Below, one piece after another: positions 3,087 to 21,851 of a stretch of DNA of 60,919 bases. The translations under genes and the position numbers were made by a program. The stretch covers positions 1 through 60,919 of the forward strand of contig JAIORV010000038.1 in the NCBI GenBank assembly GCA_021107945.1, in the 5' to 3' direction. The stretch's first letter is position 1. Each line of letters starts with the position of its first letter. The notes under the pieces were generated by a model that was given only the letters and a program-made list of their open reading frames with translations, did no database searches and was not told the origin of the DNA. This DNA is from Vulcanimicrobiota bacterium. Lineage in GTDB: Bacteria > Vulcanimicrobiota > JAJTBE01.

Positions 3087-6000
3087 TCACCGCGCCAGAA
3101 GGATGGTCACATTGTCAGAGTTCTTATTTGCAACTGCAATCTCAGGTTTGCCGTCGCCGTTAAAATCGCTTGCTATCACGCCACTAGGAGCCCCTCCCGT
3201 GAAGTAATCTGCCGTCGCCTGGAATGTGCCGTCACCGTTTCCAATAAGCACAGAAACATTGACAGAGCCAGTATTGGCGACTGCAAGGTCAATGTCGCCG
3301 TCGCCGTTAAAATCGCTTACCGCCACGCAGGCAGTCCCGTTTCCTGCAGCATAATTTACCGCCGCCTGGAATGTGCCGTCGCCGTTTCCAAGAAGCACAG
3401 AAACATTGTCAGAGCTAGCATTGGCGACTGCAAGGTCAGTGTCGCCGTCGCCGTTAAAATCGCTTACCGTAATTCCCATAGGCCCATCTCCCGCGTCATA
3501 ATTTACCGCCGCCTGGAATGTGCCGTCGCCGTTTCCAAGAAGCACAGAAACATTGTCAGAGCTAGCATTGGCGATTGAAAGGTCGGTGTCGCCGTCACCG
3601 TTAAAATCGTCTGTCGCTACACTATAAGGCTGGTCTCCAGCGTCATAATTTACCGCCGCCACAAATGTGCCGTCGCCGTTTCCAACAAGCACCGATACAT
3701 TGTCAGAGAATCTATTTGCAATTGCAAGGTCAGGATCGCCGTCGCCGTTAAAGTCGGCGGACGCTACGCTCAACGGCCCGTCTCCCGCGGCATAATTTAC
3801 CGGCGCCTGGAATGTGGCGTCACCATTTCCAAGAAGAACAGAAACATTGTCAGGGCCAAAATTAGCGGTTGCAATGTCAATATCGCCGTCGCCGTTAAAA
3901 TCGGCAGACGCCACGCTACAAGCCTCGTCTCCCGCGGCATAATTTACCGCCGCCTGGAATGTGCCGTCGCCGTTTCCAAGAAGCACCGATACATTTTTAT
4001 TCAGCTTGTTTGCGGTTGCAAGGTCAAGGTTGCCATCGCCGTTAAAATCAACTGCCACAACGCTCGAAGGCGTGTCTCCCGCGTTATAATTTAACGGCGC
4101 CTGGAATGTGCCGTCACCGTTTCCAACAAGCACCGATACATTGTCAGAGTTATAATTTGCGGTTGCAATGTCAGGGTCGCCATCGCCGTTAAAATCGCCC
4201 GTCGCCACACACTGGGGAGCGTCTCCTGCGTCATAATTTACCGCGTCCTGGAATGTGCCGTCGCCATTTCCAATAAGCACAGAAACGTTGTCAGAAGTAG
4301 AATTGGCAGATGTAATGTCGGTGTCGCCATCGCCGTTAAAATCGGCAGTAGCCAGGCTGTAAGATACGCCTCCCACGTCATAATCTACCGCCGCCTGGAA
4401 TGTGCCGTCCCCGTTTCCAATAAGCACAGAAACATCGGTAGAGTTATAGTTTGCGGTTGCAATATCCGTGTCGCCGTCGCCGTTAAAGTCGGCTACAGTT
4501 GCGCTCATGGGCATGTCTCCCGCGGCATAATTTACCGGCGCCTGGAATGTGCCGTCGCCGTTTCCAATAAGCACAGAAACGTTGTCAGAGCCATAATTGG
4601 CAGATGTAATGTCGGTGTCGCCGTCGCCGTTAAAATCGCCTGTCGTCACGCCACGAGGCTTGTCTCCCGCTGCATAATTTACTGCCGCCTGAAATGTGCC
4701 ATCTCCGTTTCCAAGAAGTACAGAAACATTGTCATCGTTATAATTAGCGACTGCAACATCAGGATCGCCGTCGCCATTAAAGTCGCCTGTCGTTGCCCCC
4801 ATGGGACCGTCTCCCACGGCATAATTTACCGCCGGCTGGAATGTGCCGTTACCGTTTCCAATAAACACAGAAACACTGCCAGAGCTACTGTTAGCGGTTG
4901 CAATGTCATATTCGCCGTCGTCGTTAAAATCGCCTGTAACTGCATCTATAGGGCCATATCCCGTCGTCTGGAATTGCTGAGCGGCAATAAAGCCCGCAAA
5001 TCCCTGTGGTGGAGGCGGAGGATTTGGGCCCGGTGTGTATGTCGGACTGGGTGAAGGCGAAGATGTAGGAGAAGGTGTGGGAGATGAAGTGGGTGTTGGT
5101 GTTGGTGTGTATGTGGGTGATGTGGTGGGAGAAGGTGTGGGCGTTGGGTCTCCACCTGTTGTGGTAGTCAACATCATTCCTCCTGCCCCTGAGATGTACC
5201 CGCTGTTTTGATTGTAGAAGTGAACACCTCTGAGGACTCTGTTGGTATTTGAATTCTGAGTCGCCCAATTTCCTTTTCCGATAGTGGTGCGAAGAATAAC
5301 GCCGCTGTCTCCAACTGCCCATCCGTTCAGGGAATCCACAAAGCAGATTCCATAAAGAGTACTTTGAATTCCTGAAACCTGGGCAGTCCATGTCGTTCCA
5401 CCGTCGGAAGTATGTATGATTGCGCCTCCCGCGCCCGATGCCCAACCGGTCAACGTATCGACAAAAGAGACACTGTAAAGATTCCCGTTGACTCCCGGAC
5501 TCTGATGGCTCCAGGTTGTCCCACCGTCGGCAGTGTATAATGCAATGCCGCTTCCTCCGACAATCCATCCGGTGTTTGCGTTTACAAAACATACATCATA
5601 TAAAGTTGTTGACACGCCTGATGTTTGTGAAGACCATGTGGCGCCGGAATCTGCAGAATAGAGTATAGCTCCGCCGTCTCCAACCGCCCACATATTAGCC
5701 CCGACAGCAAAGACGCTGTGCAGGTTCGAAGATACCTGCCGGGAACTGCCTTCCTTCTCAGACCAGGTTGCGCCGCCGTCTGTGGTGGTAAGAATAGATC
5801 CAGAATCTCCCACCGCGATACCTGTATTAATATCTGTGAAACAAACTCCATTCAGGTTATTTGAGGTTCCGGATGTCTGGGACGCCCAACCGGAACCCGC
5901 ATCCGTAGTCTTCAGGATAGTCCCCTCATTCCCGACGGTCCATCCTGTGTTCTCACTTGCAAAAAAGACATCATTCAGATCCTGCGTTGTACCTGTATTC

Positions 6001-6140
6001 TGTGATGTCCATCCCGAGGAAGTAGGTGTGGGGGTTACATCCCCTCCACCGCTACCGCCGCCGCCGCATCCTGCCATAATGGCGATAAGCCAAATGAATA
6101 TGACTACAAAACTCAATAATACCCTGAATTTCTTGTTCAC
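3087..6140 (-). CDS. Lipoprotein with Ycf48-like propeller and 13 FG-GAP (VCBS) repeats
   Basis: 1017 aa, complete. The start is GTG at 6140, preceded by GGAGGGTGATATT. Residues 1-25 form a signal peptide with lipobox MAGC, then a Gly/Ser and Thr/Pro spacer. Residues about 40-330 carry Ycf48/BNR-like repeats. Residues about 330-375 are a PT/PS-rich linker ending in a proline run. From about 385 to the end there are twelve full and one partial FG-GAP repeats of exactly 49 aa (DFNGDGD, NVSVLxGNGDGTFQ). Such repeats form Ca-binding beta-propellers; the protein is probably displayed on the cell surface. No C-terminal sorting signal is seen. It is closely related to the truncated gene before it, with a 222-bp stretch identical between the two. 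Confidence 0.9.
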   Translation of the reverse strand: MNKKFRVLLSFVVIFIWLIAIMAGCGGGGSGGGDVTPTPTSSGWTSQNTGTTQDLNDVFFASENTGWTVGNEGTILKTTDAGSGWASQTSGTSNNLNGVCFTDINTGIAVGDSGSILTTTDGGATWSEKEGSSRQVSSNLHSVFAVGANMWAVGDGGAILYSADSGATWSSQTSGVSTTLYDVCFVNANTGWIVGGSGIALYTADGGTTWSHQSPGVNGNLYSVSFVDTLTGWASGAGGAIIHTSDGGTTWTAQVSGIQSTLYGICFVDSLNGWAVGDSGVILRTTIGKGNWATQNSNTNRVLRGVHFYNQNSGYISGAGGMMLTTTTGGDPTPTPSPTTSPTYTPTPTPTSSPTPSPTSSPSPSPTYTPGPNPPPPPQGFAGFIAAQQFQTTGYGPIDAVTGDFNDDGEYDIATANSSSGSVSVFIGNGNGTFQPAVNYAVGDGPMGATTGDFNGDGDPDVAVANYNDDNVSVLLGNGDGTFQAAVNYAAGDKPRGVTTGDFNGDGDTDITSANYGSDNVSVLIGNGDGTFQAPVNYAAGDMPMSATVADFNGDGDTDIATANYNSTDVSVLIGNGDGTFQAAVDYDVGGVSYSLATADFNGDGDTDITSANSTSDNVSVLIGNGDGTFQDAVNYDAGDAPQCVATGDFNGDGDPDIATANYNSDNVSVLVGNGDGTFQAPLNYNAGDTPSSVVAVDFNGDGNLDLATANKLNKNVSVLLGNGDGTFQAAVNYAAGDEACSVASADFNGDGDIDIATANFGPDNVSVLLGNGDATFQAPVNYAAGDGPLSVASADFNGDGDPDLAIANRFSDNVSVLVGNGDGTFVAAVNYDAGDQPYSVATDDFNGDGDTDLSIANASSDNVSVLLGNGDGTFQAAVNYDAGDGPMGITVSDFNGDGDTDLAVANASSDNVSVLLGNGDGTFQAAVNYAAGNGTACVAVSDFNGDGDIDLAVANTGSVNVSVLIGNGDGTFQATADYFTGGAPSGVIASDFNGDGKPEIAVANKNSDNVTILLAR

Positions 6141-13590: not shown

Positions 13591-14415
13591 ATGAAATATA
13601 ATAATCTTGTCATATCCACCAGAATAAACGACCGGGTGCTTGTGAGCTTCGCGGCAAACAGGAGAGAGGTAAACGGCATAATAATTGGAGATCCCTTCTG
13701 CCTTGCCCGGGCAAGAATAAAGCTTTTTGACATACCCCGACTTGCAGGCGAGGCAAAGAGAGCAAACCTGCTTGTATCTTACCGGACGCCGGTATATCTG
13801 ACCTCCCGGAATCTCGACAACACGGTGTCTCTTATAGAAAGCATGGTCAGGGATAGTGTTGTGGATGAAGTCAGGATCCAGGACATTGGACTTTTACATC
13901 GTCTTCAAAAAATTTCCCGGTCAAAAATAAAGCTCACCTGGAGCATTTATGGTAGTCAGAGGGAGTTCCCCGGTATGGATATCCCCATAAACCAGGCTCA
14001 GGTCGATTTCCTCAAATCAAAGGGAATCCAAAGCTTCGAGGTAACATCGGCTGTCGCATACAGCATACTTACAAACAAGTATCCGCTTGACTTCAATATG
14101 CAGGTATATCATTATAAGTATGACCCCGTATCTTTTTCCCGACGATGTTATACGGAAGAATATGCGGGGCATTGCAGAAGGGAATTCGATGACGCCGACA
14201 CGAACCTCCCTTGCGACGAGGTATATTATCTCCAGGACGAGGAGAAAAAGGGAATGAAGTATGTTATGGAGGGGCACAGGATACTGGAGTTTCCCGATCC
14301 GGAAGAATTCAGGGAATTGATTGACTCGAACATGGAAATAGATACTCTTGTTCTCGAAGGGAATGAAATAGGGGAGATAAATGATATGATAGGGATGCTG
14401 ACGGATAACGGGTAG
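13591..14415 (+). CDS. U32-family protein, UbiV-like
   Basis: 274 aa, no signal peptide. The U32 (TIM-barrel-like) fold is suggested by the order of motifs shared with UbiV of O2-independent ubiquinone synthesis. GDPFC (Cys37) aligns with the LGEAVC motif of UbiV. A Tyr/Arg-rich SRRCYTEEYAGHC segment (Cys186, Cys195) and NLPC (Cys208) match the position of UbiV's other cluster ligands. Four cysteines would bind a [4Fe-4S] cluster. U32 proteins act in tRNA/rRNA or quinone hydroxylation using prephenate or unknown donors; the substrate here is unknown. A second U32 gene lies 2.9 kb downstream (17277). The last codons sit in an ACGGATAACGG repeat. Confidence 0.7.
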   Translation: MKYNNLVISTRINDRVLVSFAANRREVNGIIIGDPFCLARARIKLFDIPRLAGEAKRANLLVSYRTPVYLTSRNLDNTVSLIESMVRDSVVDEVRIQDIGLLHRLQKISRSKIKLTWSIYGSQREFPGMDIPINQAQVDFLKSKGIQSFEVTSAVAYSILTNKYPLDFNMQVYHYKYDPVSFSRRCYTEEYAGHCRREFDDADTNLPCDEVYYLQDEEKKGMKYVMEGHRILEFPDPEEFRELIDSNMEIDTLVLEGNEIGEINDMIGMLTDNG

Positions 14416-17176: not shown

Positions 17177-17276
17177 AAGGAAATCAGGATAACGCAGGCC
17201 TGATGTGTTTATTCATCGTAGTGAAATCGAAAAATCTATACGATTGAAAAACAAAAATAATTATACAGGTGATAAT

Positions 17277-18302
17277 ATGAAACTGATAGTCGGATCCCGC
17301 GGCAACCTTAACAGCACACGGGCGATAATTGAGGGAACCGGTGGAAAAATTGATGAGGTTTATCTGTCGGTAAAAAATTCAAGGTTTGGATCGGGCAGAA
17401 ATTACGTTCACGAGGTTGATATTTCCGAGATTGCCCGGCAGGTTGAAATTGCAAGGAAACACGATGTTCACATTTCCCCTGCGTTCAATACTGTATGCTT
17501 CGGGGTGCAGAAATTTAACGATAGTTTTCGAAATGAATTTGCAAATCTCATCAGCGACCTCCGGGAAGTCGGCATTGACAGGATTATCATCTCGGATCCT
17601 TATTTAATGGAGATTGTCCGGGATAAATTTCCCGATATAAAAATAATAGTCTCGGTATTTTCCGAGGTTGACTCCATAAACAGGCTGAAATTCTATAACG
17701 ATTTGGGTGTTGACAGAATTGTTATTCCTCACGAGTTAAATCGAAATTTGGAAAAACTAAAAAGATTTGTTGAAGTGTCAAAATGTGACCTGGAACTTCT
17801 CCTGAACCTGGGTTGCTCCCACTATTGCGCCCGGGGCGACACGCACTCCATGTTCACGGGGCATTATGTGGGCGAGATGAGGAAAAAGGTGATGGGGGAC
17901 TGTTACAATGCATATTGCAGCCGTTATAAGCTCAACCACCCGTCCGATTTCCTTTCCCAGGACTGGATTCGTCCCGAGGACATTTACCGTTACGAGGAAA
18001 TCGGGATAGAATATTTCAAGATTGCAGGAAGAGCGACATCCACATCCCGGGTTATTAAAACGACAAATGCATACCTTGACAGGAGTTATGAAGGTAATAT
18101 TTTCGAGCTGATATCAACATATTACCCATTTACAGACAGAGTAGAAGAACAGAGAAACCCAAACCCCGATTCGAAGAAAGGCAACCCCCTATACATCCCA
18201 AACAAAAAACTCGATGAGATAATGGATATATTATATGAATGCGGACACAGGTGCGACGAATGCAACAGGTGCGAGTCTTTGTTCAATTCTCTTATATCGT
18301 GA
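17277..18302 (+). CDS. U32-family protein, UbiU-like
   Basis: 341 aa from the ATG at 17277, chosen over an in-frame ATG at 17205 because AGGTGAT precedes it and MKLIVGSRGN begins the typical U32 first strand. Conserved features: an early strand (VYLSVKNSRFG), a middle IIISDPYLMEIV segment where UbiU has ILADLAMLEY, and a cysteine set in NLGCSHYCARGD and GDCYNAYC that fits a [4Fe-4S] site. The C-terminal tail has a further C-x3-C-x2-C-x2-C run (CGHRCDECNRC), which suggests a second metal site. The substrate is unknown. With the UbiV-like gene at 13591 it could form a two-subunit U32 hydroxylase; RNA modification is an alternative. Confidence 0.7.
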   Translation: MKLIVGSRGNLNSTRAIIEGTGGKIDEVYLSVKNSRFGSGRNYVHEVDISEIARQVEIARKHDVHISPAFNTVCFGVQKFNDSFRNEFANLISDLREVGIDRIIISDPYLMEIVRDKFPDIKIIVSVFSEVDSINRLKFYNDLGVDRIVIPHELNRNLEKLKRFVEVSKCDLELLLNLGCSHYCARGDTHSMFTGHYVGEMRKKVMGDCYNAYCSRYKLNHPSDFLSQDWIRPEDIYRYEEIGIEYFKIAGRATSTSRVIKTTNAYLDRSYEGNIFELISTYYPFTDRVEEQRNPNPDSKKGNPLYIPNKKLDEIMDILYECGHRCDECNRCESLFNSLIS

Positions 18303-19659: not shown

Positions 19660-19762
19660 ATTATTTCCACCTCATTTTTGTCTAAACCACGAAGTCACGG
19701 AGAGCACGGAGGGCACAAAGTTTTTAATTTAATTCTTCGCGTCCTTCGTGGCTAAGGGGAAT

Positions 19763-19858
19763 GGGAAAGGGGACGTGGGAAACGAGATCCATTACCCGTC
19801 ATCCATTATCCATTATCCGTTTTCCATTATCCGTTTATCGGGACGGGGACGTCCCTCC
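19763..19858. repeat. About 96-bp repeat shared with 28056-28150
   Basis: GGGAAAGGGGACGTGGGAAACGAGATCC followed by CCATTATCC-type units and then an R2 repeat. The order is the same at 28056-28150, with high identity. Here it abuts the 3' end of the FlhA-like gene. Confidence 0.8.
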
Positions 19859-19863
19859 TACAG
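19837..19863 (-). repeat. R2 repeat providing a stop codon
   Basis: On the minus strand CTGTAGGAGGGACGTCCC. Its CTG TAG is the last codon and stop of the FlhA-like gene. Confidence 0.85.
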
Positions 19864-21336
19864 ATTTGACACCTGTTCTCCGATTTCTGAGATTATTCCA
19901 AAGTTTACCAGGTTCGTGCCTGGTGGTATTTCATTCCAGGATAGAACGGAAAGGACGGGGAAGGCATGTTGTGTAATATTTCGTATTGCCGTTCTGATTT
20001 GTGGGGCAACCAGCAAGACAGGTTCCAGGTTGTTTTTCATCATTTCCATGACTTTTACTCCAAGTTCCTCAAGAATTACTTGTCCCTTTTCAGGTTCAAG
20101 AGTGAGAATGGATCCTGTTTCGGTCTTGACAATAGAATCGATGATACATCGTTCTACCTGAGGATCAAATGATATAACCTTTATCTGTCCTTCCTCGCTA
20201 ATAAACTTGCTGCATATTGCCCTTGAGAGGGCGTATCTGACGCATTCGGTGAGTATCTCCACGTCCCTGGTAAGCTCAATATTATCGGCTATTGTTTCCA
20301 TTATAGTGACAAGATCCCTTATTGAGACCCTTTCCCGGAGTAGGTTTTTCAGAATCTTTTGAATACTGCCGGGGCTTATATTATAGTTTTCAAGATCCTT
20401 TACAACGGCCGGGTAAGATTCTTCAAGGTTATCAATCAGCATTTGTACGTCCTGCCGTCCCAGAAGGTCGGGTGCATAGGAGCGAATAACTTCTTTCAAC
20501 TGGACTGTGATAACGCTCAGTTCGTCGAATATCATGCATCCAATCTGCTCGGCCTTTTCACACATTTTGCGGGAAATCCAGATGCCGGGAAGGCCAAATG
20601 TGGGATCAATCACTTGTTTACCCACCAGTTCTTTCAATTTATCATCAGATCCGATTGCAAAGAAGTAACCGGGGATTGTCTCACCCCTTGCAATCTTTAC
20701 GCCTTTTATTTTTATCTCATAGACCGTGGGGGCAAGCTTGCGATTTTCTATGACATTGACTCCGGGAATCAGCAGTCCCAATTCCATGGCGATTTCTTTT
20801 CGAATTGAAGCTATCCTCTCAAGCAGACCGCCTCCCCGTCCGGGATCTGCAATATTGATAAGCTCCTTTCCAATCTCAATTAAGAGTGGATCAACAAGCA
20901 TATCCTTGAGGATATGCATTCTTCTGCGATCAATCTCTCTGAGGTGAAGTTCTCTGCGCCCGTCGGTTCCCGCTTCATCTGCGGGTTTATGCTTTTTCCT
21001 GTGCTGCGGGGGGATCGTTTCCTTGTTTATATTCCGCAATATGAGATCCATGTGACATACGCGGTCAAAATCCCCCAGGATTCGTCCCCGATACTCCTCT
21101 ATCGCCTCGGTGGCTTTATCTCCGCCGATTAATCCCAGGGACTCAAGGGTGGCGTGATGAATTTTTTCATCGGGACTTTCCAGGAATTTCTTTATAAGAT
21201 CAATGTTTTCAGTTTTGCCGGGTTCTCCCATCTCTTTCAATGTAACAACAAGATCACCTGAACCCATCTTTGAAATATCATCTTTTATATTCTCGCTTGT
21301 TTTTTTTCTCTTCCTGACGCTCTTTTTTTCTTTCAT
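19858..21336 (-). CDS. Soluble FlhA/FHIPEP C-terminal-domain-like protein with HEAT-like N-terminus
   Basis: 492 aa, no transmembrane segment. The ATG follows GGAGGG. Residues 1-25 are Lys-rich; about 25-95 look like HEAT/PBS repeats (IKKFLESPDEKIHHATLESLG). Residues about 135-460 match the cytoplasmic domain of FlhA/SctV export-gate proteins. Recognisable pieces are DPLLIEIGKELI, ERIASIRKEIAMELGLLIPGV, YEIKIKGVKIARGE, FGLPGIWI, LLGRQDVQMLIDNL, NLLRERVSIRDL and YALSRAICSKF. In FlhA this domain forms the nonameric ring that docks chaperone-substrate complexes, normally fused to eight membrane helices that are absent here. No flagellar or type III gene is nearby. The stop codon is supplied by an R2 repeat. 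Confidence 0.8.
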   Translation of the reverse strand: MKEKKSVRKRKKTSENIKDDISKMGSGDLVVTLKEMGEPGKTENIDLIKKFLESPDEKIHHATLESLGLIGGDKATEAIEEYRGRILGDFDRVCHMDLILRNINKETIPPQHRKKHKPADEAGTDGRRELHLREIDRRRMHILKDMLVDPLLIEIGKELINIADPGRGGGLLERIASIRKEIAMELGLLIPGVNVIENRKLAPTVYEIKIKGVKIARGETIPGYFFAIGSDDKLKELVGKQVIDPTFGLPGIWISRKMCEKAEQIGCMIFDELSVITVQLKEVIRSYAPDLLGRQDVQMLIDNLEESYPAVVKDLENYNISPGSIQKILKNLLRERVSIRDLVTIMETIADNIELTRDVEILTECVRYALSRAICSKFISEEGQIKVISFDPQVERCIIDSIVKTETGSILTLEPEKGQVILEELGVKVMEMMKNNLEPVLLVAPQIRTAIRNITQHAFPVLSVLSWNEIPPGTNLVNFGIISEIGEQVSNL

Positions 21337-21851
21337 GGTTTCAGTCCCTCCTAATTTAGTATCTATTCACCGCAAAGACCACAAAGACCACAAAGATTTT
21401 TTGTAGGAGTGATGTCCCTACCCCGATAATATCCCTTTGCACCTTCTTTGCGTCCTTTACTTCTTTGTTGTTTATTTTAAATTCCTTTTTATGGAATGAA
21501 AAGCTTTCCAGAAGGTGAATAGTAACACTATTTATACTCCTATACTCCCGTGAATTTCCTTGACATAATTAATAATCCTCACCGGGGCGATTACCCCGGG
21601 GCACCCATTAAGTTTTTTTCTGGAAGAATATATATTGATACTTATGCAAGAGATGGTGGAAAACCTGTTTGATTTGCAGGAAAAAAAAGGAAATCAAAGA
21701 ACACAAACCAGGAAATTTTATGATTATCCGTTTCAACCGGTAGCGGGGGTTTCTAAACCTCCCGTTGTATCAGGAAACCTGAAGGTTTCCGCTACCGGAT
21801 TTTTTCTCCATTAATCATATGATCAAACTTGAATCAAAGAAGGTGACTAAA
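21337..21851. other. Gap and leader upstream of leuC
   Basis: No gene is seen. It contains an R1 repeat (CACCGCAAAGACCACAAAGACC, about 21369) and an R2-like remnant (about 21403). It also has a CCGGGG/CCCCGG hairpin (21582-21599) and the two competing hairpins described at 21737-21798. Confidence 0.5.
21737..21804 (+). promoter_or_regulatory. Mutually exclusive hairpins before leuC
   Basis: A long-range stem CCGGTAGCGG (21737-21746) / CCGCTACCGG (21789-21798) is followed by ATTTTTTC. It overlaps an inner perfect hairpin GGAAACCT/AGGTTTCC (21773-21790). The outer stem resembles a terminator about 50 nt before the leuC start. The geometry would suit attenuation, but similar TAGCGGGGGTTTCTAAACC repeats occur elsewhere as plain repeats. 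Confidence 0.35.

Follow-up and report, generated by a model that had tools for sequence, protein, structure and literature searches.

The window, as we call the whole 60,919-nucleotide stretch of DNA analysed here, encodes a soluble FlhA paralogue: a duplicate of the cytoplasmic domain (FlhA-C) of a full-length FlhA of this lineage that lacks the membrane channel and has a HEAT-like N-terminal arm in its place. To our knowledge, the docking ring of every known FlhA is tied to a membrane channel, and no description of free FlhA-C paralogues was found in the literature searched. The window protein belongs to a large, repeatedly evolved and apparently undescribed set of channel-less FlhA-C proteins in one poorly known phylum.

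A complete gene and its surroundings

The gene and the parts of its product, with the evidence for each in brackets, are as follows.

19858..21336, minus strand: complete gene of a channel-less FlhA-C protein, 492 aa (open reading frame and codon bias; PF00771, 313 bits)
21346..21352, minus strand: ribosome-binding site AGGAGGG, 9 bases 5' of the ATG (sequence)
20935..21336, minus strand: N-terminal region, residues 1-134, with a Lys/Arg-rich start, HEAT-like helices (about residues 33-106) and a linker (sub-threshold PF13646; low-pLDDT helices; weak same-genome match)
19918..20958, minus strand: FlhA cytoplasmic domain (linker end and D1-D4), residues 127-473 (PF00771; pLDDT; Foldseek 6ch1)
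20524..20667, minus strand: D2 part, residues 224-271, in which I228, D244, F247 and L249 correspond to I440, D456, F459 and L461 of Salmonella FlhA (mapping on Salmonella FlhA; D2 conservation)

The gene starts at an ATG with a strong Shine-Dalgarno site (AGGAGGGACTGAAACCATG), and both its N-terminal and its C-terminal part share the codon preference of other window genes, which the other two frames of the same strand do not. No same-strand open frame that would fit a lost channel part occurs in the 480 bp between the start of the gene and the divergent aconitase gene upstream of it; with no upstream coding frame and no transmembrane segment, a frameshifted or missing channel part is ruled out. 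A decayed pseudogene, against which the earlier note had argued, is unlikely given the intact frame, the ribosome site and the coding codon bias. The neighbouring genes, of glycosyltransferase and aconitase type, include no operon partner, and no type III export or flagellar genes lie near the window gene, in agreement with the earlier note. A simple consensus search saw no sigma-28-like promoter at the window gene; the flagellin gene of the same genome has one.

Several other features of this DNA were seen along the way. Short intergenic repeats ('accgcaaagaccacaaagacc' / 'cacgaagtcacggagagcacggagg') recur near genes of this genome, in the window at about 21363-21395 and 19680-19720 and also upstream of flagellin (L009). 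Judged by eye, the window contains what look like two U32-peptidase-type (UbiU/UbiV-like) genes (13591-14415 and 17205-18302) and a lipoprotein-like ORF of 1017 aa with many near-identical FNGDGxxD repeats of FG-GAP/VCBS-like type (3087-6140).

Domains and fold of the window protein

The identification of the protein as an FlhA/SctV cytoplasmic domain, made in the earlier note by reading the sequence, is borne out by profile search, where PF00771 (FHIPEP) scores 313.3 bits on residues 127-473 (cut-off 29.1; E 4.6e-93); all four sequence motifs quoted in that note are present. The match covers positions 321-655 of the 657 of the profile, i.e., the cytoplasmic domain only, and channel positions 1 to about 320 are absent. 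Of the NCBI models, TIGR01398 (FlhA) scores 313.6 against a cut-off of 772.1, with only the C-terminal half of the model matched, and TIGR01399 (SctV) scores 181.9 against 692.25, so that the protein reaches the equivalog level of neither. It has no transmembrane helices, as the note had also claimed: no 19-residue segment attains a mean hydropathy of 1.6 (the maximum is 1.11), whereas the two full-length FlhA proteins of the same genome have 9 and 8 such segments. The AlphaFold2 model has a pLDDT of about 90 over residues 150-480, and Foldseek aligns it with the solved FlhA-C structure 6ch1 (E 1.2e-32, TM 0.93 on the target).

The N-terminal region is less clear. Its Lys-rich start was described correctly (10 K/R among the first 30 residues). 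A HEAT-like character is plausible and weakly supported: HEAT_2 (PF13646) gives a signal at about residues 33-81 that stays below the Pfam threshold (17.7 bits versus a cut-off of 27.7, E 0.0044), and residues 32-102 match, at 28%, a further HEAT_2-like protein encoded in this genome. Helices 42-52, 73-85 and 90-106 are modelled at pLDDT below 50; the first 128 residues are poorly modelled because this part has no known relatives. The same N-terminus was found in no other gene among the 22 genomes searched, so HEAT-FHIPEP, for which the earlier note had proposed a survey of homologues, is not a widespread architecture, and a search of genome contigs returned no orthologue with exactly this arrangement.

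The chaperone-binding pocket

The Salmonella chaperones FliS and FliT bind FlhA in its D1-D2 cleft, where D456 hydrogen-bonds a tyrosine of either chaperone and I440, F459 and L461 are needed too (PMC5932034). When Salmonella numbering is transferred to the window protein through the PDB alignment, these four positions (I440, D456, F459 and L461) are occupied by I, D, F and L. Of the other residues, A489 is replaced by T and the pocket-lining T490 by V, the latter at a position that holds T or S in all 42 full-length FlhA sequences. Of the positions invariant among 38 full-length FlhA proteins (several of the source genomes are closely related), the window protein keeps 10 of 11 in D2, 17 of 20 in D3, 13 of 18 in D4 and 15 of 24 in D1, the domain boundaries being approximate; D2, where the key chaperone contacts lie, is thus its best-kept domain and D1, with nine of 24 invariant positions changed, the least conserved. 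The FliS of the same genome contains SIKGYQKV, with FlhA-binding residues in the same order (cf. Ile7, Tyr10, Val13).

Channel-less relatives in the same genome and across the phylum

The genome of the window (G000; 5.56 Mb, 98.6% complete) encodes two full-length FlhA proteins, both in the company of flagellar or export genes: one on contig C107 with FlhB, FliS, FliD and flagellin, the other on C83, where it stands in line with the genes of FlhB, FliP, the export ATPase and a hook/rod protein. The window protein is 51% identical to the C83 FlhA. Besides it, the genome has four channel-less FHIPEP proteins.

C165: 490 aa, with a conserved N-domain of ~95 aa
C44, L013:5833-7614: 593 aa, FlhB-C lacking the NPTH cleavage site, then FlhA-C lacking a recognisable D2
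C76: 745 aa, FlhA-C, then a FliG_N match
C44, L012:7163-8164: 333 aa, GGDEF diguanylate cyclase, ribbon-helix-helix (RHH) and a FlhA D1 fragment

The D1 fragment of the last protein sits at the family cut-off (29.2 versus 29.1 bits); its gene adjoins a repetitive Gln/Ser/Asn-rich ORF of 2333 aa (L012:2-7003). Short free FlhB-C matches are also present in the genomes that carry channel-less FHIPEP proteins.

Across the phylum, four kinds of channel-less protein can be distinguished. Class A, the ~95-aa N-domain followed by FlhA-C, is monophyletic (UFBoot 100), and its gene often lies beside that of RNase PH (several genomes), with no export genes adjoining. The N-domain is predicted to be beta-beta-alpha-beta; a derivation from a duplicated section of FlhA-C found no support (hhalign probability 0.7%), and the best 50 Foldseek matches of the class A protein are to FlhA/SctV-C only. 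The class A pocket is of the type E-P-x-Y-x-M, and such variants also occur in full-length FlhA of the phylum. Class B joins FlhB-C to FlhA-C without D2, so that a single soluble protein combines docking domains of two gate proteins; further genes of this type, likewise without the NPTH autocleavage site, are L109:3537-4823 (minus strand) and L111:6093-7379 (plus strand), and the class is related to a D2-less FlhA-C with FliG_N in genomes G006 and G009 (support 86). In class C, FlhA-C is fused to FliG_N, TPR repeats or ankyrin repeats, FliG_N being a recurrent partner at either end (L075, L077, L098, L100, L105, L107, L108, L014). Class D comprises short forms of about 350-390 aa, some of them in tandem.

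Of 38 genomes surveyed, placed in kinship groups f1-f16 and counted from profile matches rather than by reading every locus, 25 lie outside families f9, f14 and f16, and 23 of these have at least one clear channel-less copy, the two exceptions being a 67% complete genome (G013) and one with broken pieces (G005). None of the 13 genomes of these three families has a clear channel-less copy; one f14 genome (G045) has a 528-aa candidate frame. A single genome can contain as many as 19 FHIPEP matches, and nearly all genomes with channel-less copies also carry full-length FlhA. The named relatives of class A are UBP9 and Eremiobacterota MAGs and a few MAGs under other labels, and from these names and the kinship labels the window probably belongs to Eremiobacterota/UBP9; class A matches in Bacillota, Spirochaetes and Desulfobulbaceae concern the FlhA-C part only, and five genomes checked from these groups have one full-length FlhA each. 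In 79 Desulfobacterota and 101 Bacillota control genomes, 131 of these 180 with FHIPEP, no clear channel-less protein was found, and partial matches resembled contig ends or genes split on one contig. Three Desulfobacterota frames of 430-590 aa have weak, sub-threshold PF00771 C-terminal matches (G181:C162:71323-71778, G201:C133:72284-72751, G163:C45:55980-56342) and are possible distant channel-less relatives beyond the phylum, judging from sequence.

Repeated origin

Channel-less forms arose several times, and the window protein recently from full-length FlhA. It lies within the clade of full-length FlhA of its own kind (UFBoot 97), beside one full-length FlhA (93); L074 (G009) falls inside a different full-length clade (UFBoot 100), and L096, L098 and L100 group with a third (92). 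Together with class A, these separate positions imply at least four origins. In a first tree that included very divergent members, the window protein stood near the base of the FlhA clade, and their removal gave the supported position. The expansion in G003 has no supported placement (UFBoot 23-50).

Possible functions

The earlier note suggested an adaptor or a decoy. Both may apply, but the former is favoured by the retention of most of the chaperone pocket and by the recurrence of fusions to interaction repeats. We therefore put forward, with a little less than even confidence, that the window protein is a cytosolic adaptor for export chaperone-cargo complexes. The domain content, the missing channel, the origins and the pocket residues are shown by the analysis, whereas its binding, its partners and its effect on export are what we infer in this outline: the D1-D2 cleft would take up export chaperones, FliS among them, by their FlhA-binding helix and together with their cargo, the N-terminal arm would bind a second partner, and in this way late export cargo might be held, sorted or withheld at a distance from the gate, or else delivered to it. 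Fusions of FlhA-C to TPR, ankyrin, FliG_N and FlhB-C across the phylum are as expected of adaptors. The replacement of T490 by V counts against this role because T or S is universal there in full-length FlhA, and the location of the gene away from flagellar genes, with no sigma-28-like promoter by simple consensus, weakens it as well. Since class B lacks D2, not every member can work by docking chaperones; class B must serve another purpose, perhaps through ring or FlhB-type contacts.

The main rival, which we consider somewhat unlikely, is a repurposing of FlhA-C as a general protein-binding module that plays no part in export. The lack of export genes beside the window gene and beside class A, the latter often next to RNase PH, the GGDEF-RHH protein with its D1 fragment only, and the large lineage-specific expansions would all fit such repurposing, but the window protein keeps export-specific pocket residues, as class A does for the most part, channel-less copies co-occur with full-length FlhA, and the fusion partners include the flagellar modules FliG_N and FlhB-C. 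It is improbable, to a greater degree, that the free domain is a regulator or decoy that joins or caps the FlhA-C nonamer and so blocks or tunes the gate: the whole ring-forming domain D1-D4 is present, the protein derives from a co-occurring kind of FlhA, and the free FlhB-C of Helicobacter, reportedly a 'spare part', is a precedent (Wand 2006, cited in PMC3040844), but the poor conservation of D1 and the rebuilt linker speak against this reading. Very improbable, finally, is a non-functional remnant of gene duplication; the exact architecture has no orthologue, but the signs of an intact coding gene set out above are joined by a conserved core and by the conservation of channel-less paralogues across the lineage.

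Returning to the adaptor, the whole set suggests that parts of the export gate have been put to new use in this phylum as free adaptors. Speculating further, there could be a second, soluble layer of type III export, consisting of cytosolic proteins that arose by the shuffling of FlhA-C and FlhB-C with FliG_N, TPR, ankyrin and HEAT modules and that, at a distance from the membrane gate, would sort cargo or give a readout of export; this idea we hold only tentatively. A lineage that repeatedly frees the docking domain, keeps the cargo pocket in some proteins, has lost the cargo domain from others and fuses the docking domain with FlhB-C offers a natural dissection of a channel-free docking platform. 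For annotation, a PF00771 match alone does not mean an export gate.

Comparison with known systems

The window protein shares with FlhA (TIGR01398) and SctV (TIGR01399) the D1-D4 cytoplasmic domain and most of the chaperone-pocket residues but differs from them in having no channel and a new N-terminal region. Another close parallel is the HP1575-type free FlhB-C, likewise a soluble gate-protein domain encoded apart from its channel, to which NCBI model TIGR00789 (flhB_rel) is related; a free FlhB C-terminal homologue in Helicobacter reportedly acts as a 'spare part'. That case concerns a different gate protein, however, and the FlhA-C forms of the phylum are larger, multiplied and fused to many modules. 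HEAT, TPR and ankyrin scaffolds similarly join a helical-repeat or ankyrin part to a binding domain, but here FlhA-C takes the place of the partner domain, and in the window protein the HEAT part stays below the threshold.
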